Assembly (NCBI RefSeq): GCF_014697545.1
Contig: NZ_JACJSA010000019.1
Coordinates: forward strand, 1 to 64,000
Direction: 5' to 3'
DNA: 64,000 nucleotides
DNA from: Oscillatoria sp. FACHB-1407
GTDB taxonomy: Bacteria; Cyanobacteriota; Cyanobacteriia; Elainellales; Elainellaceae
Shown in pieces: positions 9,644-63,465 of the stretch. The position numbers and the translations under genes were made by a program. The notes beneath the pieces are model-generated. The model worked only from the letters and a program-made list of their open reading frames with translations. It did no database searches and was not told the DNA's origin. Position 1 is the stretch's first letter. The number at the start of each line of letters is the position of its first letter.

Positions 9644-9681
9644 GAGGAGAGTGGGGAGTGGGGAGTAGGGATGGCGGACTT

Positions 9682-9898
9682 GACCACTAACCACTGACCA
9701 TTGACCACTGACCATTGACCACTAACCACTAACCACTGACCATTGACCACTAACCACTAACTATTGACCACTAACCACTGACCATTGACCACTAACTATT
9801 GACCACTAACCACTGACCATTGACCACTAACCACTGACCATTGACCACTAACCACTGACCATTGACCACTAACCACTGACCACTGACCACTAACCATT
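9682..9898 (+). repeat. Heptanucleotide tandem array (31 units, consensus RACYAYT)
   Basis: Exactly 217 bp, or 31 contiguous 7-bp units, made only of GACCACT, AACCACT, GACCATT, AACCATT and AACTATT. It is a member of the short tandemly repeated repetitive (STRR) class known in cyanobacteria. It is preceded at 9650-9672 by a few GGGGAGT units of another heptamer family. Confidence 0.95.
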
Positions 9899-10083: not shown

Positions 10084-12909
10084 ATGCTAAAAACTCTGCT
10101 GGGTGACCCCAACGCACGCAAGCTTAAGAAATATAAACCTGATGTGGTTGAAATCAACCTGTTAGAGCCAGACATGGAGGCACTCTCAGATGAGGAGTTG
10201 CGGGGCAAAACAGGAGAATTTAAGCAACGCCTCGAAAAAGGTGAGACTCTAGACGACCTCCTGCCAGAGGCATTTGCCGTTGTTCGGGAAGCGGGCAAAC
10301 GAGTGTTAGGACTGCGCCACTTTGATGTGCAGTTGCTCGGTGGCATCGTGTTACACAACGGGCAAATTGCCGAGATGAAAACAGGGGAAGGAAAAACCCT
10401 GGTCGCAACCCTCCCTGCCTATCTCAATGCATTGACTGGAAAGGGCGTTCACGTCGTGACGGTGAACGATTACCTGGCACGTCGCGACGCTGAGTGGATG
10501 GGACAGATTCACCGCTTTTTAGGGCTAACGGTTGGGCTGATCCAACAGGGCATGAACCCTAGCGATCGCAAAAGAAGCTATGACTGCGACGTCACCTACG
10601 CCACCAACAGCGAATTAGGGTTTGACTATCTGCGCGACAACATGGCGACCTCTATGGAAGATGTGGTACAGCGTCCCTTTAACTACTGCGTCATTGACGA
10701 AGTAGACTCTGTTCTGATTGACGAAGCTCGGACTCCGCTAATCATCTCCGGTCAGGTCGAGCGTCCCAGTGAAAAGTACATGGGAGCCGCTGAGGTCGCC
10801 GCTGCGCTCACCCGCAAGGAAAACGAGGATGACCCCAACGGACACTACGAAGTCGATGAAAAAGCCCGAAATGTATTGCTTGCCGATGAGGGCTTCATTG
10901 AAGCAGAGCGGATTTTGGGTGTGACTGACTTGTTCGACCCCAAAGATCCCTGGGCGCACTACGTCTTCAACGCGATTAAAGCCAAAGAACTGTTTATCAA
11001 AGACGTCAACTACATCGTCCGCAATGGCGAAATCGTGATCGTAGACGAATTCACAGGGCGGGTCATGCCCGGTCGTCGCTGGAGTGATGGCCTGCATCAG
11101 GCGATCGAAGCCAAGGAACGGGTTGACATTCAACCTGAGACGCAAACTCTCGCCACGATTACCTACCAAAACCTCTTCCTGATCTATCCCAAACTGGGCG
11201 GTATGACAGGCACCGCCAAAACAGAAGAGGCAGAGTTTGAGAAGATTTACAACCTGGAAGTGACCATCATCCCCACGAACCGCCCAACGGGACGACGCGA
11301 CGTGTCCGATGTGGTCTACAAGAATGAAAACGCCAAGTGGCTAGCGGTGGCTCAGGAGTGTGCTGAGATGCACGAGCAAGGGCGACCTGTGCTGGTGGGA
11401 ACCACCAGTGTTGAAAAATCAGAGTTGCTCTCTCGGTTGTTGAGCGAGAAGAATATCCCCTACAACCTGCTTAACGCGAAACCAGAGAACGTGGAGCGGG
11501 AATCGGAAATCATCGCTCAAGCCGGACGCAAAGGAGCCGTCACCATCTCGACCAACATGGCGGGACGAGGCACTGACATCATCCTCGGTGGAAACGCCGA
11601 CTACATGGCGCGACTGAAGGTGCGGGAATATCTCATGCCCCGCATCGTCCAACCTGAAGATGAAGGCGAATTTGCGATCCCCGATGTCTCCTTCCGCGAT
11701 CGCCCCAGTGGTGGCGGCAAAGGGTTCGCGGCAACTGAAGGCAAAAAGGCTAAAACCTGGAAAGCCTCTCCTCAGATCTTCCCCACACCGCTATCCGCTG
11801 AGACGGAGCAGTTGATCAAGGAAGCGGTTGATTTCGCGGTGAAAGAATGGGGTGAGCGATCGCTCCCTGAACTGACCGCAGAAGACCGTCTCGCCACCGC
11901 TGCCGAAAAAGCTCCTACCTCCGATGCTGTCCTGCTCAAACTGCGGGAAGCCTACAATCGCATTCGCAAAGAGTACGAAGAGTTTACTCACGCCGAGCAT
12001 GAAGAAGTCGTGAGCCTGGGCGGCTTGCATGTGATCGGCACTGAGCGTCACGAGTCACGCCGGATTGACAACCAGTTGCGGGGGCGCGCCGGACGTCAGG
12101 GTGACCCTGGCTCCACCAAATTTTTCCTCAGCTTGCAAGACAACCTGCTGCGAATCTTTGGGGGCGATCGCGTCGCTGGCTTGATGAATGCCTTCCGCGT
12201 TGAGGAAGACATGCCGATCGAGTCGGGTATGCTGACGCGATCGCTTGAAGGCGCACAAAAGAAGGTTGAAACCTACTACTACGACATCCGAAAGCAGGTG
12301 TTTGAGTATGACGAGGTAATGAACAACCAGCGTCGGGCAATTTACGCCGAGCGTCGTCGGGTGCTGGAAGGGCAAGACCTGAAGGAACAGGTGATTAAAT
12401 ACGCCGAGCGCACGATGGATGACATCGTGGATGCATATGTGAACCCTGATTTGCCCTCTGAGGAGTGGGAACTGCCCAAGTTAGTCGGCAAGGTGAAGGA
12501 GTTCGTCTATCTGCTCCAGGATCTGGAACCCAGTCAATTAGAGGATCTGAGCATCACCGAAGTCAAAACCTTCTTGCATGAGCAGGTTCGCATTGCCTAC
12601 GACCTCAAGGAGGCCCAGGTCGATGCCATCCAACCGGGGTTGATGCGACAAGCCGAGCGGTTCTTCATCCTGCAACAGATCGACACCCTCTGGCGCGAAC
12701 ACCTGCAACAGATGGATGCTCTGCGGGAATCTGTCGGTCTGCGCGGTTATGGGCAAAAAGACCCGCTGATTGAGTACAAGAGCGAAGGCTATGAACTGTT
12801 CCTGGAGATGATGACCGAGATTCGTCGGAACGTCGTTTACTCCTTGTTCCAGTTCCAACCCCAACCGCCACAACAGCCCGTCCCTCAGCAATCCACTGAG
12901 GTGGTGTAA
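10084..12909 (+). CDS. secA: Protein translocase subunit SecA
   Basis: The ATP-driven motor that pushes preproteins through SecYEG at the plasma and thylakoid membranes. It is 941 residues from ATG 10084 ([19 protein letters not shown]), the usual cyanobacterial start; the 4-codon extension is unnecessary. Walker A GEGKT is at about 101-105 and Walker [15 protein letters not shown] at about 203-216. The NBD2 motif [11 protein letters not shown] and the helical scaffold region [17 protein letters not shown] are present. Between IPDVSF and the second half of NBD2 lies an insertion of roughly 80 residues, typical of cyanobacterial/plastid SecA. The C-terminus ends in a Q/P-rich tail without the zinc-binding cysteine motif of E. 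coli SecA. Confidence 0.98.
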
Positions 12910-14655: not shown

Positions 14656-15007
14656 CTTTGGGAGTCTAGGTAGGGTTAGCAACATTGAGCGAGCAGCGAT
14701 CGCCCAGTCCCAGCGCAACTGCCTTCAGTGTATACAAACCCTATGTGCCACTATTCAGAAAAGAATAAAACATGAAAAATAAAGGATAAGACAGAATTTC
14801 TTTTATCCTTTATCGTTTATCTTCCTCTCGTTTCAAGGCTCAGCTTTGGAATGGAACATACGGAGGCTTTACCTTCAAAACCTCATATGAGGCAGAGCCT
14901 CTCAGAGCACGTTCCCATGCAGAGCCTGAGGAACGAGATAAGAACTTACACCGACTCCCCACTCCCCACTCCCTATTCCCCACTCCCCACTCCCTACTCC
15001 CCACTCC
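14656..15007. other. Intergenic region upstream of the TIR-FGE gene
   Basis: It holds the presumed TIR-FGE promoter near 14740-14800, which is AT-rich. TTATCCTTTATCG-type heptamer-like sequence follows at 14800-14825, then the second 51-bp direct repeat and the ACTCCCY array. I see no gene. Confidence 0.5.
14887..14937 (+). repeat. 51-bp direct repeat, copy 2 (upstream of TIR-FGE gene)
   Basis: It differs from copy 1 at two positions only (AGAACG/AGCACG and CCCAGG/CCCATG). It contains the palindrome GAGGC-AGA-GCCTC and a degenerate second palindrome. Confidence 0.9.
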
Positions 15008-15009
15008 CT
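14954..15009 (+). repeat. Heptamer array ACTCCCY (8 units)
   Basis: Eight contiguous 7-bp units: ACTCCCC, ACTCCCT and one ATTCCCC. On the minus strand the stop codon TAG (15010-15008) of the TPR gene is formed within the array. Confidence 0.92.
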
Positions 15010-16162
15010 ACCCCTGCTGGAGTGCTTGAAGCTGATTCATCACCCACTCATATTGCTGCTGATCGCCCTGCTGCTTCAGCAGTTGGATAGCGATTTTAAG
15101 ATTGGCGATCGCCCCTTCTCGGTCGCCCAACCCCAACAGCACACTGCCCCGGTTGTAGTAAGCCCCTGCCAGATAGGGATCATGGGTGATCGTTTGAGTA
15201 AAGTCTTCCAGCGCAGCGGAAAGTTGCCGATCGTCAAAGTAGGCGCATCCCCGATTGTAGTAGGCATCAGCAAGGTGAGGATTCCGTTGAATCGCGTTCG
15301 TAAAATCGCTGATCGCCCCATCCAAATTACTCTGATTCAGGTAAATCGTGCCCCGCAGTTGGTAGGCATCGGCAATGCTCTCATCCTGCTGAATCGCCTC
15401 TGTAAAGGTGGCGATCGCCTGCGTAGTATTGCCTTGCTCCAACTGGTCTACCCCTTGACGAATCGTGTCTTTGGCAGGTGACTCAGAGGCACCAATTCCC
15501 TGACGATAGAGAGTCTGAATCTTGTGCAGGGTGCGATCGCAATACTCTTGCTCTCCCTGTTGCCGCCAATATTCCACTGCGTTTTGAAAGTCACTGAGAG
15601 CCGCCGTGGAGTTGCCCATCTCAAGCTGGAGGTTGCCCCGGCAATAGTAGGAGTTTGCCTGCTCTGGGTCAATCTGGACGCTGCGGTTCAGGTCATCCAA
15701 CGCCCCCTGGCGATCGCCCATTTCGTAGCGAGCCAGTGCCCGTCCACCATAGGCAACCGCATTGTTAGGGTTCATGCGAATTGCTTGCGTGTGATCTGCA
15801 ATCGCCCACTCATAGTCTTTCAGGTCAAACTGCATGGCTCCCCGCAGCGAATAGGCTAGAGGATGCCGGGGATTCATGTAAATCACACGGGTCACATCGG
15901 CGATCGCTTGCTGCTTTTCTCCCAGTCGATACAGAGCCGTACCCCGTCCCCAATAGGCATCTGTGGAATTGGGATCAAGGGCGATCGCCTCGGTGTAGTC
16001 TGCTACGGCTCCGGTGTAGTCCTGCGAGTCCCAGCGTGCATTACCCCGTAAGCAATAAACGTTTGCCGTGGGGTTGGTCGCAATCACCTGGTCAAACGCG
16101 GCGATCGCCCCTGCTAAATCGCCATCACGCAACTTCCCCAATCCCTGTTCCAGAGCATCCAT
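15008..16162 (-). CDS. Tetratricopeptide-repeat protein
   Basis: A 384-residue protein built almost wholly of 34-residue TPR units. About ten are visible (for example AYYNRGSVLLGLGDREGAIA; YSLRGAMQFDLKDYEWAIA), with the usual G8/A20/P32 pattern. It has no signal peptide or enzymatic domain, so it is probably a cytosolic scaffold for protein-protein contacts. It starts at ATG 16162, three bases after the stop of the ACT-like gene, so the two are probably co-transcribed. The stop lies inside a heptamer array, so its extreme C-terminus (LQALQQG) may have been set by array insertion. Confidence 0.9.
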   Translation of the reverse strand: MDALEQGLGKLRDGDLAGAIAAFDQVIATNPTANVYCLRGNARWDSQDYTGAVADYTEAIALDPNSTDAYWGRGTALYRLGEKQQAIADVTRVIYMNPRHPLAYSLRGAMQFDLKDYEWAIADHTQAIRMNPNNAVAYGGRALARYEMGDRQGALDDLNRSVQIDPEQANSYYCRGNLQLEMGNSTAALSDFQNAVEYWRQQGEQEYCDRTLHKIQTLYRQGIGASESPAKDTIRQGVDQLEQGNTTQAIATFTEAIQQDESIADAYQLRGTIYLNQSNLDGAISDFTNAIQRNPHLADAYYNRGCAYFDDRQLSAALEDFTQTITHDPYLAGAYYNRGSVLLGLGDREGAIANLKIAIQLLKQQGDQQQYEWVMNQLQALQQG

Positions 16163-24304: not shown

Positions 24305-24427
24305 GATCACCCATAGAGATTTGGGTCAAGGGTTTTACATCTCACCTACTTCACTTTTCTATGAATAGTGAATTACCCTGCTTCTTACGGCTTCACTCCC
24401 CTGTTGGTGAGCTTGTCGAACCACTCC

Positions 24428-24871
24428 CTACTCCCCATTCCCTACTCCCTCTTCCTCCTTATGCAGCGTCGCCTCTAACATCAAGCAATTCTGCCCGTTA
24501 ATCTGCAAGCGATATTCCACCTTGTCCATCAGGCGGTTCAAAATCAACCATCCATATCCTCCCTCCTGGTGTTGCTCTGGGGCAGGTGGCAGATAGGTCG
24601 AGAGATCAAAGCCTTTACCGTGATCCCAGATCTCCAGATAAATATCCCGTTCCTTCAGCTCTAGCCGCATTAATACAGGTAAATTAGGCTGATCGCGATG
24701 AGCATGACGCACCACATTGGAATAGGCTTCAACTAACACCAACCGCAACCGATTTGCCTGACGAGGCCAATCTACATGATCCCCTAACTCAACCTCTAGA
24801 GAACCCAGTAACCAGTTCTCCACAATGTTTAAGAACTTCAAATCACTGGGTACATGTAGTTCAGTTCTCAT
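24428..24871 (-). CDS. Anti-sigma-factor-type serine kinase (RsbW-like, HATPase_c_2)
   Basis: A 147-residue GHKL ATPase. The N box is LVLVEAYSNVVRHAHR, the G1-like box IWDHGKGFD, and the G2-like box EGGYGWLILNRLMDKV. Such proteins phosphorylate STAS antagonists or bind sigma factors in partner switching. It lies two bases after the receiver-PP2C gene on the same strand, so the pair is coupled. The C-terminal residues EEEGVGNGE are encoded by an ACTCCCY-type heptamer stretch (24423-24450) that also supplies the stop codon. Confidence 0.87.
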   Translation of the reverse strand: MRTELHVPSDLKFLNIVENWLLGSLEVELGDHVDWPRQANRLRLVLVEAYSNVVRHAHRDQPNLPVLMRLELKERDIYLEIWDHGKGFDLSTYLPPAPEQHQEGGYGWLILNRLMDKVEYRLQINGQNCLMLEATLHKEEEGVGNGE

Positions 24872-30739: not shown

Positions 30740-31267
30740 ATCACCATTTGCAAATACTTCAGCTTCATTGTCTGGTTTGGCAACTTGATTGACACGTCAC
30801 TGAAGATAGATTTCAGTGTCAATTAAACGTTGATGATTAATCGTTAATTATCCAGGGTTGATTGTTCACTACCAAGCAGCAACAACGATTGACGATTGAC
30901 ACCAATATTAAATTGAAAACGCGACATAACTCTGTAAGGTGGCAGTGCCAAACCCCTCCTAGATTTTGATTGCCTAAAATCCTGTTTAGATCGGTTTGAC
31001 CATCAACCATCAACCATCAACCATCAACCATTGACCATTGACTATCAACCATCAACTATTGACCATTGACCATCAACCATTGACCATCAACCATTGACCA
31101 TTGACCATTGACCATCGACCATTGACCATTGACCATCAACCATTGACCATCAACCATTGACCATTGACTCCTAGCGATCGCCCCCTCAGCCCACAGTTCC
31201 ATTTGTTACACTGTTCAAACATGCGGTTTTAGTCATCTCCCTATTTGCTAGTTAAGGATGTCCATTT
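30740..31267. other. Intergenic region with inverted repeat and heptamer array
   Basis: It includes the TTGACAC/GTGTCAA inverted repeat (30789-30822), then unassigned DNA, then the 24-unit heptamer array, then the tldD promoter region (31169-31267). No gene is seen. Confidence 0.5.
31001..31168 (+). repeat. Heptanucleotide tandem array (24 units, CATYRAC)
   Basis: 168 bp, exactly 24 units of CATCAAC, CATTGAC, CATCGAC, TATCAAC and TATTGAC. It is the same base family as the array at 9682, with a different phase and composition. It ends at TCCTAGCGATCGCC. Confidence 0.95.
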
Positions 31268-41151: not shown

Positions 41152-41380
41152 GGAGTCTATCTCGCTAAATGCTGAGTCTCTATGGGTTTTGGGTTAGTAG
41201 CCAGGAAGATGATCTTCTTCGTAAAGAAATATATCGTATATCGACTGCGATCGCCTGTCGCTTTTGAGAGAAACTGAAGAAAAATGAAGAGAGAAAAAGG
41301 AAAGATGATTAGTCAATGGTCAGCGGCCAATAGTCAATAGTCAGTGGTCAATGATCAGCCGTTATTTTTCACCCCATTCC

Positions 41381-42022
41381 TTACTCCCTACCCTTCCTTC
41401 TCCGATACCAGGTAGTAAACCCCACAAGAATGCCTAACATTCCAGAGGCAAGCATCAAGGGCACAATGTCACCACGTGTCATGGCTCGTAATCCGGCTCC
41501 CAACATCACAAAGGGAAGAATTCCCGGTACGGTGCCCAGAGCAGTACCAATCAAATAATCTTGAAAGCGAATTGAGGTCAGCCCAGCCGTAAAGTTGACG
41601 AGTCCATAGGGGAGCAGTGGCAGTAACCGAACCGCAAACATATAAAACACGCCACCTTGACGAATTTCGGTGTCGAGGGTTTGCCAGCGTCCAGTAAACC
41701 GTTTCGCGATCGCCTCTCGTCCGAGGGTACGGGTAAAGGCAAAGGCAGCGATCGCAGCAATGATGGCAGCAATGCTCGTCCACAGAGTTCCCCACCAAAC
41801 ACCAAAGAGGGCACCGCCAGTAAGATTAAGGGGGGTCGAGGGCAGCATCAACAACGTCCCTAGAACGTAAAGCAGGACGTAACCAAGGGGTGCCCATACA
41901 CCTGCCTGCTTTAACCAAGCTTGAATTTGGGCTTGATCCAATCTTCCTAATTCATGAGCAGCAACAACAGTTACGGCAACGCAAACTGCCAAAAGTAATA
42001 GAATTCCAATTTTGGAGTTCAA
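41381..42022 (-). CDS. TVP38/TMEM64 (DedA-like) membrane protein
   Basis: A 213-residue polytopic protein of the SNARE-associated/VTT (TVP38/TMEM64) family. Five or six hydrophobic helices are visible, with the signatures GYVLLYVLGTLLMLPSTPLN, GGALFGVWWGTLW and RLLPLLPYGLVNFTAGLT. These are re-entrant-loop motifs of the family, proposed to act in lipid scrambling or transport. The C-terminus YRRRKGRE and the TAA stop lie in an ACTCCCT/ATTCCTT heptamer stretch. Confidence 0.9.
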   Translation of the reverse strand: MNSKIGILLLLAVCVAVTVVAAHELGRLDQAQIQAWLKQAGVWAPLGYVLLYVLGTLLMLPSTPLNLTGGALFGVWWGTLWTSIAAIIAAIAAFAFTRTLGREAIAKRFTGRWQTLDTEIRQGGVFYMFAVRLLPLLPYGLVNFTAGLTSIRFQDYLIGTALGTVPGILPFVMLGAGLRAMTRGDIVPLMLASGMLGILVGFTTWYRRRKGRE

Positions 42023-49318: not shown

Positions 49319-49604
49319 TGGTCTACCCAGGAATAGCAAGCTTGGGTGATGTAGGAGAAGAATGAAGAGAGAAAAATAAAAGAATGAAGAGTGAAGCGTG
49401 GAGAGTGAAGAGCTAGTCAGCAGCGGTCATTCAGGCTGTTAAAACGTGTTTGTTACCCATTTCACTTGCTTGCGTATCCATGGCAAGCTAACCCACCAAA
49501 ATCACCGCAGTGAATCCATCTCTTCCAAACCCGCCTCTTTTCTTCTTTTCCCCTTCTTTTTTCCCTCTTCTCTCCTCCTTATCCTTCCGACTTCCCTTTC
49601 ACTT

Positions 49605-51905: not shown

Positions 51906-52700
51906 TCAGGTTCCTTCAACCGGGATCTCAGATTGGAGCCGATTTGCCGTTCGTAAGATTTGTCCTGCCAGAACCGCTGCCCCAAAGCCATTGTCGATAT
52001 TGACAACACCAATCCCGGCAGCACAGGAGTTGAGCATCGTCAGCAGGGGTGCCAATCCACTAAAGTTTGCTCCATAACCCACACTGGTAGGAACGGCAAT
52101 CACCGGGCAATCTGCCAGTCCAGCAACCACACTGGGTAAGGCTCCCTCCATGCCTGCCACGACAATTAACACATCGGCTGTTTGGATCAAGTGTCGATTG
52201 TTGAGCAAGCGGTGAATCCCGGCTACACCAACATCCCACAGTCGTTTGACCTGAAAGCCAGATAACTCAGCCGTGACTGCGGCTTCTTCTGCGACCGCCA
52301 GATCAGCGGTGCCTGCGGAAAGCAGGGTAATCGTGCCAGGATGCTGGGGCGTGAGGGAATAGGGGGCGATCGCACAGATGCGTGCCATGTCGTAATAGCG
52401 CAGGTCGCGCACGCGTGGTTGAAGCTGGGCATAAACCTCTGGGGTAATCCGCGTTGCCATCACCACTGGGTTGCGTTCTCGCATCGCCCCCATGATTTGA
52501 ATGATTTGCTCAGGGGTTTTACCGGGACCCCAGATCACCTCTGGAAAGCCCGTTCTCAGCGATCGATGGTTGTCGATTTTTGCGAAGTCACCAACGGGTT
52601 CAAAGTCAAAGTGTTTGAGCTTTTCGAGAGCCGTGTCTGGGCTGACTTCACCCTGAGCCACAGCATTGAGTAAGTAACGGAGAGTATCGGGTTGAGTCAC
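51906..52700 (-). CDS. larB: Nickel-pincer cofactor biosynthesis protein LarB
   Basis: A 264-residue LarB-type NCAIR-mutase-like protein. In the lactate-racemase pathway LarB carboxylates and hydrolyses nicotinic acid adenine dinucleotide to start the nickel-pincer nucleotide. Motifs seen are TLLSAGTADLAVAEEAA, VVAGMEGALPSVVAGLADCP and VPTSVGYGANFSGLAPLLTM, the AIR-carboxylase-like core. The start is GTG 52700. larC, larE and larA are not in the window, so the rest of the pathway must be elsewhere if present. Confidence 0.93.
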   Translation of the reverse strand: MTQPDTLRYLLNAVAQGEVSPDTALEKLKHFDFEPVGDFAKIDNHRSLRTGFPEVIWGPGKTPEQIIQIMGAMRERNPVVMATRITPEVYAQLQPRVRDLRYYDMARICAIAPYSLTPQHPGTITLLSAGTADLAVAEEAAVTAELSGFQVKRLWDVGVAGIHRLLNNRHLIQTADVLIVVAGMEGALPSVVAGLADCPVIAVPTSVGYGANFSGLAPLLTMLNSCAAGIGVVNIDNGFGAAVLAGQILRTANRLQSEIPVEGT

Positions 52701-52801
52701 GGAGGAAAAAAAGGATAAACGATAAAGGGTGAAGGCTAAAGGATGAATGTGGAGATGGGTGGACGAATAGGATTTGAATTTTGATTGGTATTATTTTTTA
52801 T

Positions 52802-52829
52802 CCTTTAGCCTTCATCCTTTAGCCTTCAT
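52802..52829. repeat. CCTTTAG/CCTTCAT heptamers at the end of binding-protein gene 1
   Basis: Four 7-bp units (CCTTTAG, CCTTCAT, CCTTTAG, CCTTCAT). On the minus strand the stop TAA of the first peptide-binding protein (52821-52819) is formed within the units. Confidence 0.85.
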
Positions 52830-54606
52830 TCTCTACTCTAATCTCTTGAATGTTCCACAAGCCCCAGGTAGGCAAACCGGAGTATTTCAATCCCTGGACG
52901 CGATCGCGCACGGCAACTAGGGCAATCTCGTGAACCAGGTGAATCACGGGCAGTTGCTCCTGGGCAATGCGTTGGTAATCACCATAAATGTCGCGGCGTT
53001 TGGCTTCGTCCAGTTCGCGTGCCCCAGCCTTAAACAGTTGGTCGATCTGGCGTTCCCAGTCGGAGACGACCCAATCTGTGATCGGAGGTTGCCCCGGTTG
53101 CGGGCCGAGATTAAACAGATGAAATCCGCCGCCACTCGTCCACAAATTTGCTCCAGAGTGGGGTTCCACACCGCCGGTAAAACCGATGAGGGCACAATCC
53201 CAATCACGAGAATTGACCAGGCGACCAATCAAGGTTTGAAAAGCGATCGGGCTGAAGTCTACCTGGACGCCGATTTTGCTCAAGTCGGTTTTGATCTGCG
53301 CCCCGATCGCCTCTCGTAGCTCGTTGCCCGCATTAGTGTTGAGGGTAAAACGGACACGATTTCCCTCAGCATCCAACAATTCACCAGCGGCGTTGTATTG
53401 AAATCCCGCAGACAACAGCAATTGACGTGCCTTATCCAGATCATAATCGTAGGTTTTTAAGCCCTGTTCTGGGGAGAGGTAATAGGGGCTTTGCACCGAG
53501 ATCGGCGAGTCCTGGGGTTGGCTAATACCGCGATAGAGATTGGTGATCATGCGGGGGCGATCGATGGCGTGGGCGATCGCTTGCCGAAACTCCAGGGTAT
53601 TGAACCAGCGGGACTTGATCGGATCGACAAAGGGTTGCCCCTTATCGTTTTTAGCCTGATTCAGGTTGAAGCTGATGAACGTCGTGCCCGACCAGGGTCC
53701 ACCAATCAAAATCTGAAACTTACCCCGCTTCTCTTCCCGCTTGAGCAACGAGAAGTATTCAGGACGGAGGGGGCGCACATCCCCTACGACATCCAGATCG
53801 CCAGAACGAAACTGCAATAACTGGGTATCGGTTGACTCAGATAGTTGCCAGACAATGCGATCGACATAGGGAAGGGGTTGCCCATAGCTATCGCGTCGCC
53901 AGTAATGGGGGTTGCGCCGAAAGACAATGCGTTCACCAGGGCGATATTGTTCGACCTGATAGGGACCGTTCACCACAAGCTTTGTAGGGTCGGTATCGGT
54001 TCCCCAGGTGGAGTTAAACAGTGGATTGCCACTGGAATCGAGCGTTTTCACTGCATCTTGAAGCGCATGTTTGGGGAGAATACCAATGCCAGTGGCACCC
54101 GCCGCTGTTGCCCGAACAATGGGTGCAAAGGGTTCGGGCAGGACGAATTCAACCTGGCGATCGCTGAGTTGGCGCACCTCTGGCAACACTCCCGCTTCTC
54201 CAACGCGAAAACCGTCGCGATCGTCGATGGGAATCTTCTCGTTAAAGATCACATCCCGGTAGGTAAACACCACATCTTCAGCGGTGAGTGGCGTCCCATC
54301 CGACCATTTCAGCCCCGATCGCAGCGTAAACACCAAACGGCGATCGCCCAAAAACTCCCACGATTCCGCCAGTTCTGGAACAACCTCTCCCGTCTCTCCA
54401 CTCTCAGCGGTTAGCCCCCTCGTGGTGAACATGAACACATTTGGGAATTCCTGGTTCAACGCCGGATTAAAGGTTTTGGGATCTTGAAGTGTGGTCAAGA
54501 CCAACTGCGATCGAATGCCCTGACCACTCACGGTTGAGAGGCGACAGCTTACGAGAGCGATCGCCATCACCAGCATCAAACCGAGTAGTAGTAAGCGTTT
54601 TGCCAT
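52819..54606 (-). CDS. Oligopeptide/dipeptide-type ABC substrate-binding lipoprotein 1
   Basis: A 595-residue SBP_bac_5 family protein. The signal peptide with lipobox LVSC (about residue 21) anchors it outside the plasma membrane. The mature part has LVLTTLQDPKTFNPALNQEF, RSGLKWSDGTPLTAEDVVFT and FRQAIAHAIDRPRMI, hallmarks of DppA/OppA-type proteins. It is the third of three paralogues in tandem. No permease or ATPase is nearby. The ligand is unknown. Its last residues (RVENEG) and stop come from heptamer DNA. Confidence 0.92.
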   Translation of the reverse strand: MAKRLLLLGLMLVMAIALVSCRLSTVSGQGIRSQLVLTTLQDPKTFNPALNQEFPNVFMFTTRGLTAESGETGEVVPELAESWEFLGDRRLVFTLRSGLKWSDGTPLTAEDVVFTYRDVIFNEKIPIDDRDGFRVGEAGVLPEVRQLSDRQVEFVLPEPFAPIVRATAAGATGIGILPKHALQDAVKTLDSSGNPLFNSTWGTDTDPTKLVVNGPYQVEQYRPGERIVFRRNPHYWRRDSYGQPLPYVDRIVWQLSESTDTQLLQFRSGDLDVVGDVRPLRPEYFSLLKREEKRGKFQILIGGPWSGTTFISFNLNQAKNDKGQPFVDPIKSRWFNTLEFRQAIAHAIDRPRMITNLYRGISQPQDSPISVQSPYYLSPEQGLKTYDYDLDKARQLLLSAGFQYNAAGELLDAEGNRVRFTLNTNAGNELREAIGAQIKTDLSKIGVQVDFSPIAFQTLIGRLVNSRDWDCALIGFTGGVEPHSGANLWTSGGGFHLFNLGPQPGQPPITDWVVSDWERQIDQLFKAGARELDEAKRRDIYGDYQRIAQEQLPVIHLVHEIALVAVRDRVQGLKYSGLPTWGLWNIQEIRVENEG

Positions 54607-54615
54607 TAAGGAACA

Positions 54616-54831
54616 GTCAATAGTCAGTGGTCAATGGTCAATGGTCAATGGCTTCGCCGTGAGTGCTCAGCCGAACGGTCAATGGTCAATGGTCAATAGT
54701 TGATAGTTAATGGTCAATGGTCAGTGGTCAATAGTTGATAGTTAATGGTCAGTGGTGAGGGGTCAGGAGTCAATAGTCAGTGGTCAATGGTCAGTGGTCA
54801 ATGGTCAATAGTTGATAGTCAGTGGTTGATG
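54616..54831 (-). repeat. Heptamer array GTCARTR, interrupted by a 27-bp hairpin insert
   Basis: The first block has 5 units (54616-54650) and the second has 22 units (54678-54831), with units GTCAATG, GTCAGTG, GTCAATA, GTTGATA and GTTAATG. Between them lies 27 bp starting GCTTCGCCGTGAGTGCTCAG, which forms an imperfect hairpin (TGAG/CTCA, TTCG/CGAA). It is the minus-strand counterpart of the RACCAYT family. The gap to 55007 holds no gene. Confidence 0.92.
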
Positions 54832-54962
54832 GGACTGAGTTAGTAAGGAGATCGGAACATAGAAAAGAGCTACGTTAAATCATTCAACTCAACCCTTTGC
54901 TCATCTACGCCATTGATCAAACAACCCTCTTCTCTCTTCCCTTCTTCTCTCTTTCCTCTCAT

Positions 54963-55018
54963 CCTTTATCCTTCACCCTTCACCCTTCACCCTTCACCCT
55001 TCATCCTTCATCCTTCTA
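54963..55018 (+). repeat. CCTTCAC heptamer array (8 units)
   Basis: Eight units: CCTTTAT, four CCTTCAC, two CCTTCAT and CCTTCTA. It overlaps the end of the second peptide-binding protein, whose TGA stop is within it. Confidence 0.92.
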
Positions 55019-56786
55019 TCCTTTCCCCTTCTACCAGTTGCAGCTCGTACAGGTTCCAGATGGGCCCCCCCGCCGCTGAGTACTTGATGCCTTGAATCTT
55101 ATTGCGAACTGCGACAAGTGCCAGCGGATTCACCAGATAGATAAACGGCAGATTTTGCTGAGCAATTTTTTGAGCTTCGCCATAGAGTTCTTTGCGTTTT
55201 GCAGGGTCAAACTCTTGTCCCGCTTGCACATAAAGGCGGTAAATCTCTCGCTCCCAATCGGCAACCACTCGCCCCTCGATCGGCTCCTGTCCCTGTCCCG
55301 GAGACTGGTTGAACATATGCAGGCGTCCGTCAGGTGACCAGGTATTTTTGCCGCCATCCGGCTCAAAGGGCGCACCCCCAATTCCCAGAATCATCGCCTC
55401 CCAATCAAGTGTGTCATCGGCGCGACGAATCAGGGTATTAAAGGCGATCGGTTCAAAATCAACCTGCATTCCCAGTTCGCCTAAATCTCGTTTGATCTGT
55501 GCGCCCAGTGCCGCACGGGTTGGGTTCTCAGCGTTGGTGATCAGGGTAAACCGGACTCGATTCCCTTCAGCGTCTGTGAGTTGTCCGGCGGAGTTGCGCT
55601 TAAAGCCTGCGCTGGTGAGCAGTTCTCTCGCCTTATCGAGATTGTAGTCATACACAGGCAACCCCTCTTCGGGCGACAAATAGAAGGGGCTTTGCACATA
55701 CATCTGCGAGTTTTGAGGCTGCCCCAATCCTTGATAGATGTTGTTGATCATGGTTTGGCGATCGATCGCATGGGCAACTGCCTGCCGAAACTCCAGGGTA
55801 TTGAACCAACGGGACTTCACTGGATCAACCAGGGGTCTACCATTGCGGGTTGCCTGATTGAGGTTAAAAGTGATGAACGACGTAGTCAACGCCGGTCCCC
55901 CCTCGTAAATGGTGAAATTACCCCGTTCCTCCTCCCGCTTCAACAGACGGAAATAATCGGGGGTAATGCCCTCTACATCGAGCGAACCTGAGCGAAATTG
56001 AGTCAGCGATGCAGCATCTTCTTGAATGATCTGCATGACCACCTGCTGAATATAGGGCTGAGGATTGCCTGCTGCATCACGTCGCCAGTAATAGGGATTG
56101 CGTTCCAGGATAATTCGCTGGCTGGGCAAGTAGCTAACGATGCGGTAAGGGCCACTTACAACTACCTGATCGAGTGGGGTATCGGTTCCTAACACGGCTA
56201 GAAAACGAGGATTGCCCTCCGAGTCCGTGCTGGTAATCGTCTCTTGCAGCTTGTGTTTTGGCAAAATCTCAAGCCCACCCGCAAAGCGTAATAGTGGGGC
56301 AAAGGGTTCGGGCGATCGCACCTCTAATCGGCGATCGTCCAGCTTACGAACCTGGGGAAACGCTCCGGCTTCTCCAACCCGCATGATGTCCTGCACGCTA
56401 CTGGGAATTTTGGGATTGAAGACGACATCGTTAAAGCTAAACAGCACATCATCGATGGTTAGAGGCTCCCCATCAGACCACTGCAACCCTTCCCTCAAGG
56501 TAAACGTGATGGTGAGATCATCATCTGAAATTTCCCACGATTCCGCAATTCCCGGCTCCAGATCGCCCGTAACCCCGTTAGTGGTTAGCAACCCCTCGTA
56601 AATGTAAGCCAACACATCATTGGCACCTGCATTCGTTACAGGGTTAAAGGTCGAAGGGTCACTGAGCGAGCTAACAACAATGCGCGGCACTTGCGCGGCA
56701 CTTGTCCTAAATTGGTCGAGGCTGCACCCACTCAGGGCGATCGCCATCACCAGTAAACCGAGAATGAATCGTCGTAACAGAAACAT
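55008..56786 (-). CDS. Oligopeptide/dipeptide-type ABC substrate-binding lipoprotein 2
   Basis: A 592-residue paralogue with lipobox ALSGC (about residue 21). The same SBP_bac_5 motifs are present: IVVSSLSDPSTFNPVTNAGA, LREGLQWSDGEPLTIDDVLF and FRQAVAHAIDRQTMI. It lies 244 bp downstream of paralogue 3, separated by an AT/purine-rich heptamer-like stretch (56800-56900), so it may have its own promoter. The last codons are derived from CCTTCAC repeats. Confidence 0.92.
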   Translation of the reverse strand: MFLLRRFILGLLVMAIALSGCSLDQFRTSAAQVPRIVVSSLSDPSTFNPVTNAGANDVLAYIYEGLLTTNGVTGDLEPGIAESWEISDDDLTITFTLREGLQWSDGEPLTIDDVLFSFNDVVFNPKIPSSVQDIMRVGEAGAFPQVRKLDDRRLEVRSPEPFAPLLRFAGGLEILPKHKLQETITSTDSEGNPRFLAVLGTDTPLDQVVVSGPYRIVSYLPSQRIILERNPYYWRRDAAGNPQPYIQQVVMQIIQEDAASLTQFRSGSLDVEGITPDYFRLLKREEERGNFTIYEGGPALTTSFITFNLNQATRNGRPLVDPVKSRWFNTLEFRQAVAHAIDRQTMINNIYQGLGQPQNSQMYVQSPFYLSPEEGLPVYDYNLDKARELLTSAGFKRNSAGQLTDAEGNRVRFTLITNAENPTRAALGAQIKRDLGELGMQVDFEPIAFNTLIRRADDTLDWEAMILGIGGAPFEPDGGKNTWSPDGRLHMFNQSPGQGQEPIEGRVVADWEREIYRLYVQAGQEFDPAKRKELYGEAQKIAQQNLPFIYLVNPLALVAVRNKIQGIKYSAAGGPIWNLYELQLVEGERIEG

Positions 56787-57018
56787 AAGTAAAGAGGGAA
56801 GAAGGAAAAAAGAAGAAAGAAGAGGAAAAAAAGGATAAAACGAGGAGGAAAAAAGGATAAACGATGAAGGATAAAGGATAAAACGAAGCAGGATGAAGGG
56901 AGGAAGAGAAGTAAGAAGAAAGGACTGACTGATTTGCGATCGATAAAAATCATTCTACTGAGTTCTGCCTTCTACCTGCGTTTAACTCTGCTCACACCCA
57001 ATTTGCCTGCTTCTTTCG

Positions 57019-57039
57019 TTCTTCGTTCTTCATTCTTCC
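57019..57039 (+). repeat. TTCTTCN heptamers at the end of binding-protein gene 3
   Basis: TTCTTCG, TTCTTCA and TTCTTCC, three units. The TGA stop of the third peptide-binding protein (57032-57030) lies within them. Confidence 0.75.
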
Positions 57040-58799
57040 TCTAGCTCTAGCTCATGAATGTTCCAGAGTGGTCCATTGAGAGCCGAGAATTTGATAGGAC
57101 TGAGGCGATCGCGCACGGCAGCAAGTGACAGGGGATTCACCAGATAGATAAAGGGCAGGTTTTCCTGGGTGATGCGCTGGCTTTCGGCATAAATGGCTTT
57201 GCGCTGAGTTTCATCCAGGGTTTTAGCTCCTTGAATGTAGAGATCGGCAATACGCTGTTCCCAATCGGAGACGACACGTCCCTCAATTGGCGGTTGTCCG
57301 GGTTGGGCTGCCTGGTTAAAGCGGTGCGATCGCCCATTGGGGAGCCACACATTTGCCCCAGAGTTGGGTTCAATGCCTCCGGTAAAGCCCAGCAGATAAC
57401 ACTCCCAATCGACGGTATTGCCCAGTTTGTTCAGCAGGGTGTTGAAGGCGATCGGCTCAAAATCAACTTGAATGCCGATTTTTGCCAGGTCTTGTTTGAC
57501 CTGTGCTCCCATTGACTCCCGCACTTTGTTTCCAGCGTTGGTGATCAGGGTGAATCGAACCAGATTGCCATCGGCATCCAGCAGTTGCCCAACGGTGTTG
57601 TACTGAAATCCAGCAGAGACGAGGAGTTGGCGCGATCGCTCCGGGTCGTAGTCGTAGACGGGCAAGCCCTCTTCGGGTGGCAGGTAATAGGGACTTTGCA
57701 CCGATATCGGCGAGTTTTGCAGTTGAGCCAATCCCTGAAAGGTGTTGTTGACCATGCGTTGGCGATCGATGGCATGAGCCACTGCCTGCCGAAATTCCAA
57801 CGTGTTGAACCAGCGTGATTTGATCGGGTCAACCAGAGGTTTGCCATTACGACGACCCTGATTGAGATTAAAGGCGATGAAATTAGTGCCTGCGGCGGGC
57901 CCCCCTTCATAGAGGGTAAAGTTGCCCCGTTCCTCCTCTCGCTTTAACAGGGCAAACAGGTCGGGTGTGATGCTCAACACGTCCAGCCCACCGGAGCGAA
58001 ACTGCATTAGCGACGCATCGGTAGACTCGACAATTTGCCAAACCACCTGATCAATATAAGGTTGGGCATTGCCCTGGTTGTCGCTTCGCCAGTAATAAGG
58101 ATTTCGCTCGAAGACGACCCGCTGACTGGGTTGATAACTCGCTAAGACATAGGCACCGTTCCCGATGATTTCTCTGGGGTCAGTGCCCGTCGTCCAGGTG
58201 GAAATGAACAACGGATCACCCTGGCTGTCTTTGGTTTCCACCGACTCACGCAAGGCATGGGCAGGCAGAATCGCGAGTCCCAAATTGCGTAAGAGCGGAG
58301 CAAAGGGTTCGGGAACCGAGAACTCAACTTGACGATCGCCCACCTGTCGCACTTGCGGCAACGCACCCCCTTCTCCAATGCGCAGCACATCCCGAATCGA
58401 ACTGGGAATCGCCTCATTGAAGTAGAGATCGTTGTAGGTAAACACCACATCCTCGACGGTCAGCGGTTCCCCATCTGACCAGCGCAAATTGGGTTTGAGG
58501 GTGACAACAATCCGCTTGTTATCCGGCGAGATCTCCCACGACTCCGCCAGCGCAGGCTGAATTTCACCCGTCACCCCATCCTCCACGATCAAGCCCTCGT
58601 AGATGTAGCCAAACACGTTGGGCGATTCGGAGTTGAGCACATAGTTGAAGGTTTTGGGGTCGCTGACAACGCTCAAGAGCAAGCGGGGCACCTGAGCGGC
58701 TTCCGTTCTCAACAACAGTGGGTTACACCCAGTCAGGGCGATCGCCACTCCAATCAACAACGCCCCAATTACCCCAAACCACGTTGCCCGTCGTCTCAT
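57030..58799 (-). CDS. Oligopeptide/dipeptide-type ABC substrate-binding lipoprotein 3
   Basis: A 589-residue paralogue with lipobox ALTGC (about residue 25). Motifs LLLSVVSDPKTFNYVLNSES, LKPNLRWSDGEPLTVEDVVF and FRQAVAHAIDRQRMV are present. It is the first of the tandem trio, and its ATG overlaps the queF stop (ATGA), so translation is coupled to queF. The three proteins are clearly related to one another over the full length (about 50-60% by eye), a local triplication. Confidence 0.92.
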   Translation of the reverse strand: MRRRATWFGVIGALLIGVAIALTGCNPLLLRTEAAQVPRLLLSVVSDPKTFNYVLNSESPNVFGYIYEGLIVEDGVTGEIQPALAESWEISPDNKRIVVTLKPNLRWSDGEPLTVEDVVFTYNDLYFNEAIPSSIRDVLRIGEGGALPQVRQVGDRQVEFSVPEPFAPLLRNLGLAILPAHALRESVETKDSQGDPLFISTWTTGTDPREIIGNGAYVLASYQPSQRVVFERNPYYWRSDNQGNAQPYIDQVVWQIVESTDASLMQFRSGGLDVLSITPDLFALLKREEERGNFTLYEGGPAAGTNFIAFNLNQGRRNGKPLVDPIKSRWFNTLEFRQAVAHAIDRQRMVNNTFQGLAQLQNSPISVQSPYYLPPEEGLPVYDYDPERSRQLLVSAGFQYNTVGQLLDADGNLVRFTLITNAGNKVRESMGAQVKQDLAKIGIQVDFEPIAFNTLLNKLGNTVDWECYLLGFTGGIEPNSGANVWLPNGRSHRFNQAAQPGQPPIEGRVVSDWEQRIADLYIQGAKTLDETQRKAIYAESQRITQENLPFIYLVNPLSLAAVRDRLSPIKFSALNGPLWNIHELELEEE

Positions 58800-60122: not shown

Positions 60123-60202
60123 AGAAGAAGGGATAAACGATAAAGGCTAAAGGATAAGAGAGGAAATTAGAAGTCAACTTTTTATCCTTTATCCTTCATG
60201 TT

Positions 60203-60907
60203 TCATCCTTTCAAATGGCTTGCCCACTGCTTCACCGCCCCCAGTGAGCCATACCAGAGTTTGCCGGGTTGGGGGGAGTGCAGCACGTCATCAAGCACAA
60301 TGTTTTCCGCCCCATCGAGATGAGCGGCTGAAATGGGTGTAATGCCATCGCCCCAACATTCACCAACACCACAGGTGAGTTGATAGCTGCTGCGAACAAA
60401 CCAGTTTGACCAGCCTTTACCGCCGTAGATTGCCTTACCCGCGACACAAACGTAGCGCACGTTTGGGTAGAAGGCTCCAGGATAGTTGATCTTGACGAAA
60501 TCGAGGTTGCGTTTTGTCCAGCGTTCGCCGCTGATGTGGGGTGTTCCCAGAGTTATTAAAGTCGCCACTTGAGGATGCGCTTTCCAGAGGCAGGTCTTGC
60601 CGCGATCGCCCGGATGCACATCATAAGGCACTTCACCGATGTAGATGCGCGAGATCCAACCGCCCGCCGAATGCCCCACAAGATGGACGCGATCGCTGCC
60701 AAACTCCTGCATCGCCCGCTTCACCGTCTCATCTAACTGCTGCAAAATCGGCAACATCGACCGTCCCCCCACCGTCGGGAACCAATCACCCCGCTTTAGC
60801 GGCACCGTCATCGCCGACAAACCAAGCGATCGCAACCCTTCTTCCATTTCGCGATAGGGCAGAGCATCCGCAAAATAACCCGGTAAGATGACGACTGGCA
60901 GAGACAT
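60203..60907 (-). CDS. Lipase/esterase of the alpha/beta-hydrolase fold
   Basis: A 234-residue hydrolase. MSLPVVILPGYFADALPYRE opens with the oxyanion-hole strand, and the nucleophile Ser is in VHLVGHSAGGWISR. The later ATLITLGTPHIS is a lipase feature. The catalytic Asp is probably in WGDGITPIS and the His in LDGAENIVLDDVLH. It has no signal peptide with this start. ATG 60907 is preferred because the 23 residues from 60976 are translated heptamer repeat. The substrate is unknown. The C-terminal stop lies in CCTTTAT/CCTTCAT heptamers. Confidence 0.87.
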   Translation of the reverse strand: MSLPVVILPGYFADALPYREMEEGLRSLGLSAMTVPLKRGDWFPTVGGRSMLPILQQLDETVKRAMQEFGSDRVHLVGHSAGGWISRIYIGEVPYDVHPGDRGKTCLWKAHPQVATLITLGTPHISGERWTKRNLDFVKINYPGAFYPNVRYVCVAGKAIYGGKGWSNWFVRSSYQLTCGVGECWGDGITPISAAHLDGAENIVLDDVLHSPQPGKLWYGSLGAVKQWASHLKG

Positions 60908-61220
60908 AGGGAAAAGGATAAACGATGAAGGATGAAAGATAAAAATGAAAAAATAGAACGGTGAAAGGTGAATCAATCTGAGAGCAGCATTGGCGACTAA
61001 AGTCGCAGCTACAGGAGCAAAACCTGCCTCCGTAGGTTACAGAAAACCTTGATTGGCTTGAGTCCGCAACGACAGACTTTGTTCTTGTCGTCACGGTTTT
61101 AACCGCCGAAACCTTCTCAGATATCCTCTAAACGACTGACGATTAACAACTGACAATTGACGACTGACAATTGACGACTGATAACTGGCGATAGACCACT
61201 AGCTCCTTATCCTTTAGCCT
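60908..61220. other. Intergenic region with ACRAYTG heptamers
   Basis: 313 bp between two minus-strand hydrolase genes. It contains AAGGATGAAAG-like heptamers at 60910-60950, unassigned sequence, and an ACRAYTG array at 61132-61187. No gene is seen. Confidence 0.5.
61132..61187 (+). repeat. ACRAYTG heptamer array (8 units)
   Basis: Eight 7-bp units: ACGACTG, ACGATTA, ACAACTG, ACAATTG, ACGACTG, ACAATTG, ACGACTG and ATAACTG. Confidence 0.9.
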
Positions 61221-62162
61221 TTATCCTTCATCCTTATCTCCTCTCTCTGCCAACCACTCGACAATTAGCCGATTGACTAATTGCGGACACTCGTCGTGGG
61301 GGCAATGTCCGGCATTGGGAATCACTTTGAACTGCACTCGATCCGGCTCTTGGGTAGCGAGATCTTGATAAACTTTGGCTCCGGCGATCGGCGTCCAGGG
61401 GTCAGCATCACCCCACAAAACGAGCAGAGGTTGGTTAACTCGCGGCAACAACTCCGTCGGAGAGGGACCAGGAGGAGCCGTCAAAATGGAGGCAAACACC
61501 TTTTGAGCACCGGGGTCGCAGGAAGGTTCGTAGAGCATCTCCACCAACTCATCGGTGATGGCAGTGCGATCGCGATAGACCTGTTGCAATGTGCGCCGAA
61601 TCCGATGCTTTTGCCGCACTTGGTTAAAGATAAAAGGTCCCAATAGCTCAGAACCAACCAGTTTGGTGAAAGTGCCCATAATGACGCGCAGGGGCAAGTT
61701 CAACTCCTCTGGACGATGGTTCAGCCCACCTGCCGCATTCAACAACACACCCCCGGCACATAGCTCTGGGTAATCAGCCAACACCATCAAGCTCAGCAAT
61801 GCCCCAATCGAGTTACCCACAAACACCGCAGGCTGTTGCACATGCTCAGCACAAAAATCTTTGAGCAATTCCTGCCACAAATCTACGCTGTAGTCGAGGG
61901 GTGGCTTCTCAGAGCCACCAAACCCCAACAGATCAAGGGCAAACACCTGATAGCCTGCCGCTGCCAACGCCGGAATGTTTTGCCGCCAGTGCCCGATCGC
62001 CGCACCGAACCCGTGAATCAGGATGAGGGGATGTCCGCTACCTTTGACGGCATACCGGATGTTATAGCCACGCCACGTCCAGTTCTTAATCTCAAATGGA
62101 GGGGCGATCGCGACGGTTTCCGTTACGTCTTGTACATCAGGAGTGGTTAAATCGGTAGTCAC
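61221..62162 (-). CDS. Alpha/beta-fold hydrolase
   Basis: A 313-residue hydrolase. The fold signature is PLILIHGFGAAIGHWRQNIP, with the nucleophile Ser in VFVGNSIGALLSLM. The catalytic Asp is in LVLWGDADPWTPI and the His in VIPNAGHCPHDE. The pattern is close to plant/cyanobacterial pheophytinase-like hydrolases (GNSIGAL), but the substrate is not established. It starts at ATG 62162. The stop codon lies in CCTTTAG/CCTTTAT heptamers. Confidence 0.9.
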   Translation of the reverse strand: MTTDLTTPDVQDVTETVAIAPPFEIKNWTWRGYNIRYAVKGSGHPLILIHGFGAAIGHWRQNIPALAAAGYQVFALDLLGFGGSEKPPLDYSVDLWQELLKDFCAEHVQQPAVFVGNSIGALLSLMVLADYPELCAGGVLLNAAGGLNHRPEELNLPLRVIMGTFTKLVGSELLGPFIFNQVRQKHRIRRTLQQVYRDRTAITDELVEMLYEPSCDPGAQKVFASILTAPPGPSPTELLPRVNQPLLVLWGDADPWTPIAGAKVYQDLATQEPDRVQFKVIPNAGHCPHDECPQLVNRLIVEWLAERGDKDEG

Positions 62163-63193: not shown

Positions 63194-63465
63194 GGAAGGG
63201 GAGTAGGGAGTGGGACGTAGGGAGTGGGAGGACGAGAGAACAAGGCTTCTGGGTGTTGCTAAATGGAGGAATGATTGTCCTGAAATAGACATGAGCGAGA
63301 CGCTCACACTCCCTTCAGGCAGATTGTTTCAACTAGTGTGAGCATCCTGCTCGCGACGAGTGCTCACGACCCATTCATCCCCAAGCTCAGCAACACGGTT
63401 CCTATTTGCCCATTCACCCATCTACTCATCTACTCATCTACCCAGCCACCCGTCCCCCACTTCCC

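Follow-up and report, generated by a model that had tools for sequence, protein, structure and literature searches.

Heptamer arrays border open reading frames with an outward polarity in a cyanobacterial genome

Why should one gene after another end inside a tandem repeat? The question is raised by a 64,000-nucleotide stretch of the genome of Oscillatoria sp. FACHB-1407 (contig NZ_JACJSA010000019.1, positions 1 to 64,000; hereafter the window), in which arrays of 7-bp units lie at the ends of many genes, including those of solute-binding proteins around positions 52,802 to 55,018. An earlier note on this DNA had proposed that such arrays insert preferentially at gene ends, or trim C-termini harmlessly, with units that stop every reading frame entering them. 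We find that the arrays do concentrate at gene ends, but that their polarity, absent from that note, is the stronger feature. The arrays border the edges of open reading frames (ORFs), and their C-poor strand points away from the nearest edge, whether this is a stop or a start. A stop codon lies inside an array when the 5' edge of the array reaches a few codons into the C-terminal tail.

Arrays were detected by a period-7 self-match score, with cut-offs of 10, 12, and 14, in 1.264 Mb of the 8.13-Mb draft genome (G000; 66 contigs), comprising positions 1-600000 of each of the contigs C1 and C2 together with the window. Genes were called with a simple home-made Markov-model caller, so that start codons are approximate. 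At a score of 14, the sample holds 149 period-7 arrays, as against none in one Markov-4 control and 0 to 14 for each of eleven further periods that were tested, none of them a multiple of 7; at a score of 10, the window holds 21, while five Markov-4 controls had 0 or 1 each. Read on the C-poor strand, the main families are GGGGAGT, AAGGATR, and GTCARTR, with smaller ones of GAAGAGA and GATTTTG. Among the 160 arrays taken for positional analysis, 124 are wholly intergenic and 36 touch coding sequence, 12 of these being more than half coding. These 160 arrays were re-placed 150 times in non-coding DNA with up to 20 bp of coding overlap permitted (30 bp in a variant). Of the real arrays, 53 have a stop codon no more than 20 bp away, as against a mean of 13.9 and a maximum of 27 in the re-placements, whereas start codons show little excess (20 arrays versus 15.4). 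Whole stop codons are contained in 20 arrays versus 7.0 expected, and whole start codons in 1 versus 7.5. When the permitted overlap is raised to 30 bp, the number of arrays that contain a stop falls within the range of the re-placements (mean 9.4, maximum 20), but the number within 20 bp of a stop still exceeds all of them (mean 15.6, maximum 26). The preference for gene ends put forward in the earlier note holds after correction for coding overlap; array positions are not random in this respect, and intergenic length alone is insufficient to explain their concentration.

The polarity was counted on 140 of the 160 arrays, 9 having been dropped for unclear strand and 11 for lying inside genes or lacking two neighbors. 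Oriented by family or by the purine-rich strand, 123 of the 140 are nearer to the ORF on the 5' side of the C-poor strand. Within 30 bp, the edge on the 5' side is a stop for 51 arrays and a start for 22, as against 1 array at a stop and none at a start on the 3' side, i.e., 73 that follow the rule and 1 that breaks it. The contrast persists with the window excluded (46 stops and 19 starts versus none of either), when the G/C skew is the sole guide to orientation (54 and 19 versus 1 and 2), and with ORF-overlapping arrays left out (94 of 114 nearer the 5' side; 29:1 within 30 bp of a stop). Same-strand, convergent, and divergent gene pairs all show the same sign. When array-stop pairs are scored, i.e., arrays that overlap a stop or start within 30 bp after it (one array may count for two genes), the strand of the array family is that of the gene in 54 of 58; the four exceptions are the GTCAATG array at 41328 and three arrays of the ATTTTGG family, for which the choice of strand is arbitrary. 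Opposed neighboring arrays in one spacer face each other in 57 cases versus 3 in the three genomes considered below (26:1, 23:2, and 8:0), and 17 more neighboring pairs share orientation.

The two further genomes, G303 and G187, are cyanobacteria of different families, of which 400 kb each was sampled, and their units differ from those above, with AGTTTTG, AGGTGGT, AGGGATG, AATGGGT, and AGTTGTC found between them. In the counts oriented by G/C skew, the arrays dropped for unclear strand and for intragenic position or lack of two neighbors were, respectively, 9 and 11 of 160 in G000, 5 and 26 of 130 in G303, and 8 and 2 of 60 in G187. In G303, 73 of 99 arrays (59 of 83 with overlapping arrays removed) are nearer to the 5'-side ORF, with 36 stops and 13 starts versus 4 and 3 within 30 bp (49 versus 7); in G187, the figures are 35 of 50, and 20 and 9 versus 7 and 2 (29 versus 9). 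A measure that dispenses with arrays, namely the number of ORF edges whose first 40 outward bases contain at most two C versus at most two G, gives 61:4 of 614 stops and 45:12 of 720 starts in G000, 30:0 of 203 and 14:5 of 213 in G303, and 21:10 of 225 and 21:15 of 251 in G187. In array-poor relatives, it gives 3:1 of 177 stops and 1:1 of 213 starts, and in array-free genes, no 10-nt bin within the first 50 has a G/C skew above 0.11; hence, we reject a general bias of base composition at gene edges. Array-rich genomes are scattered across the class: of 338 genomes, 53 contain AAGGRTR triplets and 32 contain GTCARTR triplets. The latter pattern, when reversed as a control, captures TAACTGA-like repeats and is itself abundant in G267 (269 matches on one strand and 244 on the other), G271, G116, G198, G139, and G144, indicating that the dominant heptamer family varies between lineages.

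Turning to the units themselves, the earlier note held that any entering frame would stop within about three of them. This is true of pure AAAGGAT, GAAGGAT, and AGGGAGT, whereas pure GGGGAGT, GTCAATG, GTCAGTG, GAAGAGA, and GATTTTG are free of stops on the gene-side strand; in GTCAATG, the TGA is present on the opposite strand. Real arrays mix stop-free units with stop-carrying variants. As the stop-free units keep the same orientation, we rejected stop-codon content as the cause of the orientation. Moreover, in 32 of the 58 array-stop pairs, the array starts after the stop and, therefore, is not what ends the gene. Nor are G-runs the common denominator: among the 14 commonest consensus units of G000, which account for 102 of the 140 arrays, 93 arrays lack a GGG run and 9 have one, and only GGGGAGT-type units qualify as quadruplex-capable. 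Since families without G-runs follow the rule, quadruplexes are not its general cause.

Within the window (Table 1), seven of the eight minus-strand stops that had been placed inside heptamer arrays (15008, 24428, 52819, 55008, 57030, 60203, and 61221) are so placed at a period-7 score of at least 10. At a score of 12, four remain by period 7 (15008, 55008, 57030, and 61221), with two more by period 14 (24428 and 52819). The eighth, 41381, has only a degenerate GGGTAGGGAGTAAGGAATGGGG tract. Of the three plus-strand stops said to closely precede heptamers, 9643 and 60122 do so, after 2 and 9 bases, respectively, the latter only at a score of 10, while for 63193 the array emerges only if indels are tolerated, as in Tandem Repeats Finder.

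Table 1. Arrays and associated genes in the window
Feature	Position	Strand	Remarks
GGGGAGT array	9646-9671	+	2 bp past stop 9643, outward
TTGACCA array (minus strand GTCAGTG/GTTAGTG)	9683-9896	-	outward from start called at 10084; faces 9646-9671
GGGGAGT array	14951-15014	-	stop of TPR gene (15008-16162) inside
AGGGAGT array	24423-24450	-	stop of HATPase_c_2 gene (24428-24871) inside
TTGACCA array	30999-31168	-	outward from start 31268
GTCAATG array	41328-41357	+	23 bp from stop 41381, inward; exception to rule
VTT-domain (TVP38) gene	41381-42022	-	degenerate GGGAGT tract at stop; no significant period-7 array
GAAGAGT-type array	49380-49412	+	downstream of stop 49318, outward
AAGGATA-type tract	52715-52747	+	facing; upstream of start of gene 51906-52700, outward
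AAGGCTA/AAGGATG array	52791-52826	-	stop of 52819 gene inside; score 11.5 (period 7), 17.5 (period 14)
SBP1	52819-54606	-	SBP_bac_5 solute-binding protein (Pfam PF00496); stop in array
GTCAATG array	54612-54651	+	5 bp outside SBP1 start, outward
GTCAATG/GTTAATG array	54674-54819	+	outward from SBP1 start
GAAGGGT/GAAGGAT array	54961-55016	-	SBP2 stop inside
SBP2	55008-56786	-	SBP_bac_5 solute-binding protein (Pfam PF00496)
Two AAGGATA-type arrays (56792-56823, 56852-56882)	56792-56882	+	outward, first 5 bp outside SBP2 start
GAACGAA array	57015-57038	-	stop of SBP3 (57030-58799) inside
AAGGATA array	60132-60157	+	past stop 60122, outward; score 11.5
AAGGATA array	60181-60206	-	facing; stop 60203 inside; score 11.5
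GTCAATT-type array	61132-61187	-	outward from stop 61221
AAGGATA array	61207-61235	-	stop of alpha/beta hydrolase (61221-62162) inside
GGGAGTA array with indels	63199-63230	+	past stop 63193, outward

The region 52819-58799 presents three consecutive, related SBP_bac_5 genes with a heptamer array at every stop, SBP1 being 58% identical to SBP3 and 54% to SBP2; the relatives of the binding proteins in named records are all cyanobacterial (5 of 5). In the spacer next to the stop of SBP1, the facing tracts 52715-52747 and 52797-52829 form a 33-nt inverted repeat with 85% complementarity, and a second register of the same pair gives a perfect 18-nt inverted repeat (52730-52747 with 52811-52828); spacers with such facing arrays could fold into long RNA stems. 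Copying between facing arrays was considered and rejected, as shared 10-mers are not significantly above random pairs. Among relatives, 27 of 29 SBP1 loci lack an array, and 20-kb stretches of 20 relatives hold two arrays, too few to judge polarity. The closest SBP1 orthologue (G016, 71% identity) has its own C-poor tract at the equivalent stop. In L092, the closest relative, the tract at the stop of the SBP1 orthologue is C-poor, degenerate, and GATGAAAGGG-like, and a GGCGAACGGCCGTTCGCC palindrome comes after it.

The proposal that C-termini are trimmed harmlessly gave a mixed outcome in the three proteins that we aligned, SBP1, the hydrolase, and TVP38, with 10, 17, and 3 orthologous loci, respectively. 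SBP1 ends within 3 residues of 8 of its 10 orthologues, the other two being longer by 11 and 26. The hydrolase is 1 to 6 residues longer than 16 of its 17 orthologues and 5 shorter than the remaining one. TVP38, whose stop bears no significant array, is 19, 12, and 3 residues shorter than its three orthologues. By the bounds of the detector, the array codes only about the last 2 to 4 residues of SBP1 and of the hydrolase. According to these alignments, arrays sit in a variable C-terminal tail, which they both lengthen and cut.

What could impose a single outward orientation on so many units? The arrays are probably simple repeats of the short tandemly repeated repetitive (STRR) type, expanded through slippage during replication in the dispensable DNA flanking genes. 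As to their polarity, we tentatively favor the idea that an array acts as a polar front, advancing along the 5' side of its C-poor strand until halted by selection on the ORF. As units are added, or as deletions anchored in the array occur, sequence would be consumed 5' of the C-poor strand but not 3' of it. Selection on the ORF would halt the front once it meets the last indispensable codon or, at the other end of a gene, the promoter or start codon; and a stop inside an array would mark where the front came to rest rather than an insertion signal. That one outward rule serves stops and starts disfavors causes tied to the transcribed strand. The gaps between stop and array are themselves C-poor (22 gaps with 401 G and 141 C in G000; 10 with 141 and 96 in G303), so that the C-poor tract begins at the stop. 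Convergent spacers net of their arrays are shorter than array-free ones (126 versus 228 bp in G000, 72 versus 555 in G303, and 124 versus 286 in G187).

Several observations weigh against a polar front. We identified no process of such polarity. Between a start and its array, the skew of the gaps is smaller (36 gaps with 778 G and 513 C), and many of those of 60-160 bp resemble ordinary DNA by eye. Beyond 60 bp from the 5' edge, arrays have no preference (56 of 107 nearer, pooled over the three genomes); arrays between a 5'-side start and a 3'-side stop are weakly polar in G303 (20 of 32) and G187 (8 of 15); and the effect in G187 becomes weak when overlapping arrays are excluded (22 of 33, p = 0.08, the binomial p-values assuming independent arrays). 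Growth at one end of the array was rejected, for no purity gradient along the arrays is significant (p = 0.36, 0.74, and 0.07). The orthologues, as noted, speak of lengthened tails as well as shortened ones. Spacers of G000 net of arrays equal array-free ones in same-strand (199 versus 198 bp) and divergent (396 versus 392) pairs, which suggests that DNA was added rather than replaced; yet the length-weighted expectation for these spacers is longer (588 and 678 bp), so that spacer lengths fit insertion and replacement alike. Strong hairpins are rare at array-bordered stops (6% of 48 versus 41% of 200 array-free stops in G000; 18% of 28 versus 37% of 99 in G303), a poverty that is partly trivial because the C-poor tract folds badly. 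The 72 nt beyond the arrays show no enrichment of hairpins (21% of 48 in G000, 21% in G303), and stops on the 3' side are poor in them too (15% of 52). Being scarce on both sides of the array, hairpins do not discriminate between the models. Displaced terminators were rejected on the same data, there being neither a hairpin excess beyond the arrays nor a clear contrast between 5'-side and 3'-side stops.

Nearly level with the polar front, and likewise no more than tentatively credible, stands orientation-dependent purifying selection on RNA. Under this scheme, arrays would be born anywhere and in both orientations, with C-poor sense sequence then purged from leaders and C-rich RNA from the stretch past the stop, such that the survivors look polar. 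The C-poor strand does hold Shine-Dalgarno-like runs and NTG codons (AAGGATG, GGGGAGTG). With the three genomes pooled and overlaps included, few C-poor sense arrays lie ahead of a start (8 below 40 bp) and few C-rich sense arrays past a stop (8 below 20 bp), and the unchanged net length of same-strand and divergent spacers in G000 agrees with such purging. However, two unrelated rules are required to yield one outward polarity, and the pile-up immediately past stops, where 94 of 152 5'-side-stop arrays lie at less than 10 bp in the same pooled set, is left unexplained. Probable neighbors among genes for transfer RNAs (tRNAs), which are untranslated, also lean the same way as the ORFs.

These neighbors bear on a broader formulation, which we regard as doubtful in its full extent: a transcription-blind process at the level of DNA would mark the limits of functional DNA, be it an ORF end, a promoter, or possibly a tRNA gene, with outward C-poor heptamer tracts of many unit sequences, so that array orientation would map the onset of selection on DNA, the cause being polar growth or polar loss of flanking sequence at purine-rich repeats during bacterial replication. 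At tRNA or tRNA-like loci, an AAGGAT array points outward from the 3' end in 5 cases versus 1 reversed, a tally made partly by eye, with only one of the six a confirmed tRNA. The latter is a tRNA-Asn of G303 (one of 14 tRNAs found with ARAGORN), with an array 7 bp past its 3' end. A search of the 338 genomes with a pattern that needs just 11 repeat bases returned 6 outward loci in 5 genomes, of which four are tRNA-like by eye (G158, G017, and two in G155) and two are not (G011 and G164), and 4 reversed loci in 4 genomes, one of them tRNA-like (G143) and three not; G000 has no locus in either orientation. Two further cases stand outside the 5:1 tally, namely a tRNA-Thr of G187 with an outward array 179 bp off and an array of unclear strand between tRNA-Ala and tRNA-Ile. 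On balance, the tally leans toward a DNA-level cause.

It is improbable that the arrays are functional 3' elements, such as terminator substitutes or RNA stabilizers, selected in their active orientation. The paucity of hairpins at array-bordered stops, for which composition is partly responsible, would suit such a role, and transcripts start or stop more often at quadruplex-forming repeats than at control repeats in the data of Rehm et al. (PMC4692102). However, start edges show the same polarity (22 versus 0), the unit sequences are several and unrelated, most relatives lack an array at the SBP1 locus, and the arrays at the two ends of one gene match no better than random (12, 14, and 4 genes), a result on which we also rejected the pairing of such arrays.

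Healing of broken ends has still less to commend it, and we consider it very unlikely. Here, telomere-like repeats would be added to the 3' end of broken DNA, with the G-rich strand pointing away from the retained DNA; the strand rule equals that of telomere-type repeats, and the families of facing pairs in one spacer are no more alike than random. Against this, ordinary DNA is often left between facing arrays, and the draft of G000 has no match to the RVT_1 reverse transcriptase, which has at least one in 15 of the 18 genomes searched (none in G000, G002, and G036), or to Ku. The RecC-type exonuclease (Exonuc_V_gamma) has no match in any of 14 genomes searched, G000 included, AddAB not having been searched for. 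Together, these absences weaken telomere-like, Chi-like, and end-joining models. Equally hard to credit is the view of the earlier note that gene ends tolerate arrays on account of units with stops in every frame, such as pure AAAGGAT, GAAGGAT, and AGGGAGT have on the sense strand; GTCAATG-type, GGGGAGT, GAAGAGA-type, and GATTTTG-type units fail to do so and yet keep their orientation (the last two families being few), and most array-stop pairs, as seen above, begin past the stop. An artefact of gene calling, whereby frames run on to the first stop within an array, can be given scarcely any weight: it may play a part where array and stop codon overlap (26 of 58 pairs, 21 of these by at least 3 bp), but the non-overlapping arrays counted above show the same polarity, as do start edges.

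Should the rule prove general across units, lineages, and both gene ends, explanations based on quadruplexes, stop codons, or the transcribed strand would be insufficient, and a testable question would follow: do repeats grow directionally in bacteria, or does selection read repeat orientation at gene borders? There is a practical corollary for annotation, as C-termini in array-rich genomes may be repeat-derived.

Knowledge of heptamer arrays in cyanobacteria goes back to about 1990, and the short tandemly repeated repetitive sequences of these organisms were reportedly the subject of work by Mazel et al. in that year. The present arrays resemble them in being 7-bp tandem units, mostly intergenic, with several families per genome, and in their cyanobacterial hosts; position and polarity are not known to belong to the STRR definition. 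A closer precedent comes from Rehm et al. 2015 (PMC4692102), in whose pages the Calothrix heptanucleotides are also mentioned. In the parts of that paper considered here, the quadruplex repeats GGGNATC (GGGAATC) and GGGGA(C/T)T of two Xanthomonas and one Nostoc share the same preference for position and strand: they are nearer to the 5' neighboring ORF regardless of its direction, most at no more than 50 bp, lying on the sense strand past stops or antisense before starts, some overlapping stops, and those parts offer no cause. Both the nearest 5'-side ORF and the strand rule recur in our arrays. The differences are that quadruplex-capable G-run repeats were selected there, whereas families without G-runs obey the rule here, and that the Nostoc is described as having few paired inverted repeats and a depletion between divergent ORFs, while here facing pairs are common and the divergent spacers of G000 are not depleted of arrays (12% versus 13-15%). 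The TAACTGA direct repeats of Beggiatoaceae, described in MacGregor 2015 (PMC4679880), are likewise heptamers with a preferred orientation beside ORFs; they stop all frames of one strand and overlap the ends of coding sequences by up to 18 nt. In contrast to our arrays, those of Maribeggiatoa lie mostly just upstream of starts in 2 to 6 copies, have been suggested to be sites of a translational regulator, and have a unit with as many G as C. Beyond these two papers, we found no later printed account of heptamer polarity in the titles and abstracts of the open-access library searched, from which most subscription journals are absent. More generally, Lin and Kussell 2012, as cited in PMC4692102, are said there to have found simple repeats enriched near prokaryotic coding termini, most strongly near the N-terminus. 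Our arrays similarly avoid gene middles and gather near ends, though at stops and with a strand rule. What is added here is that families without G-runs obey the polarity, both within one genome and in three lineages.

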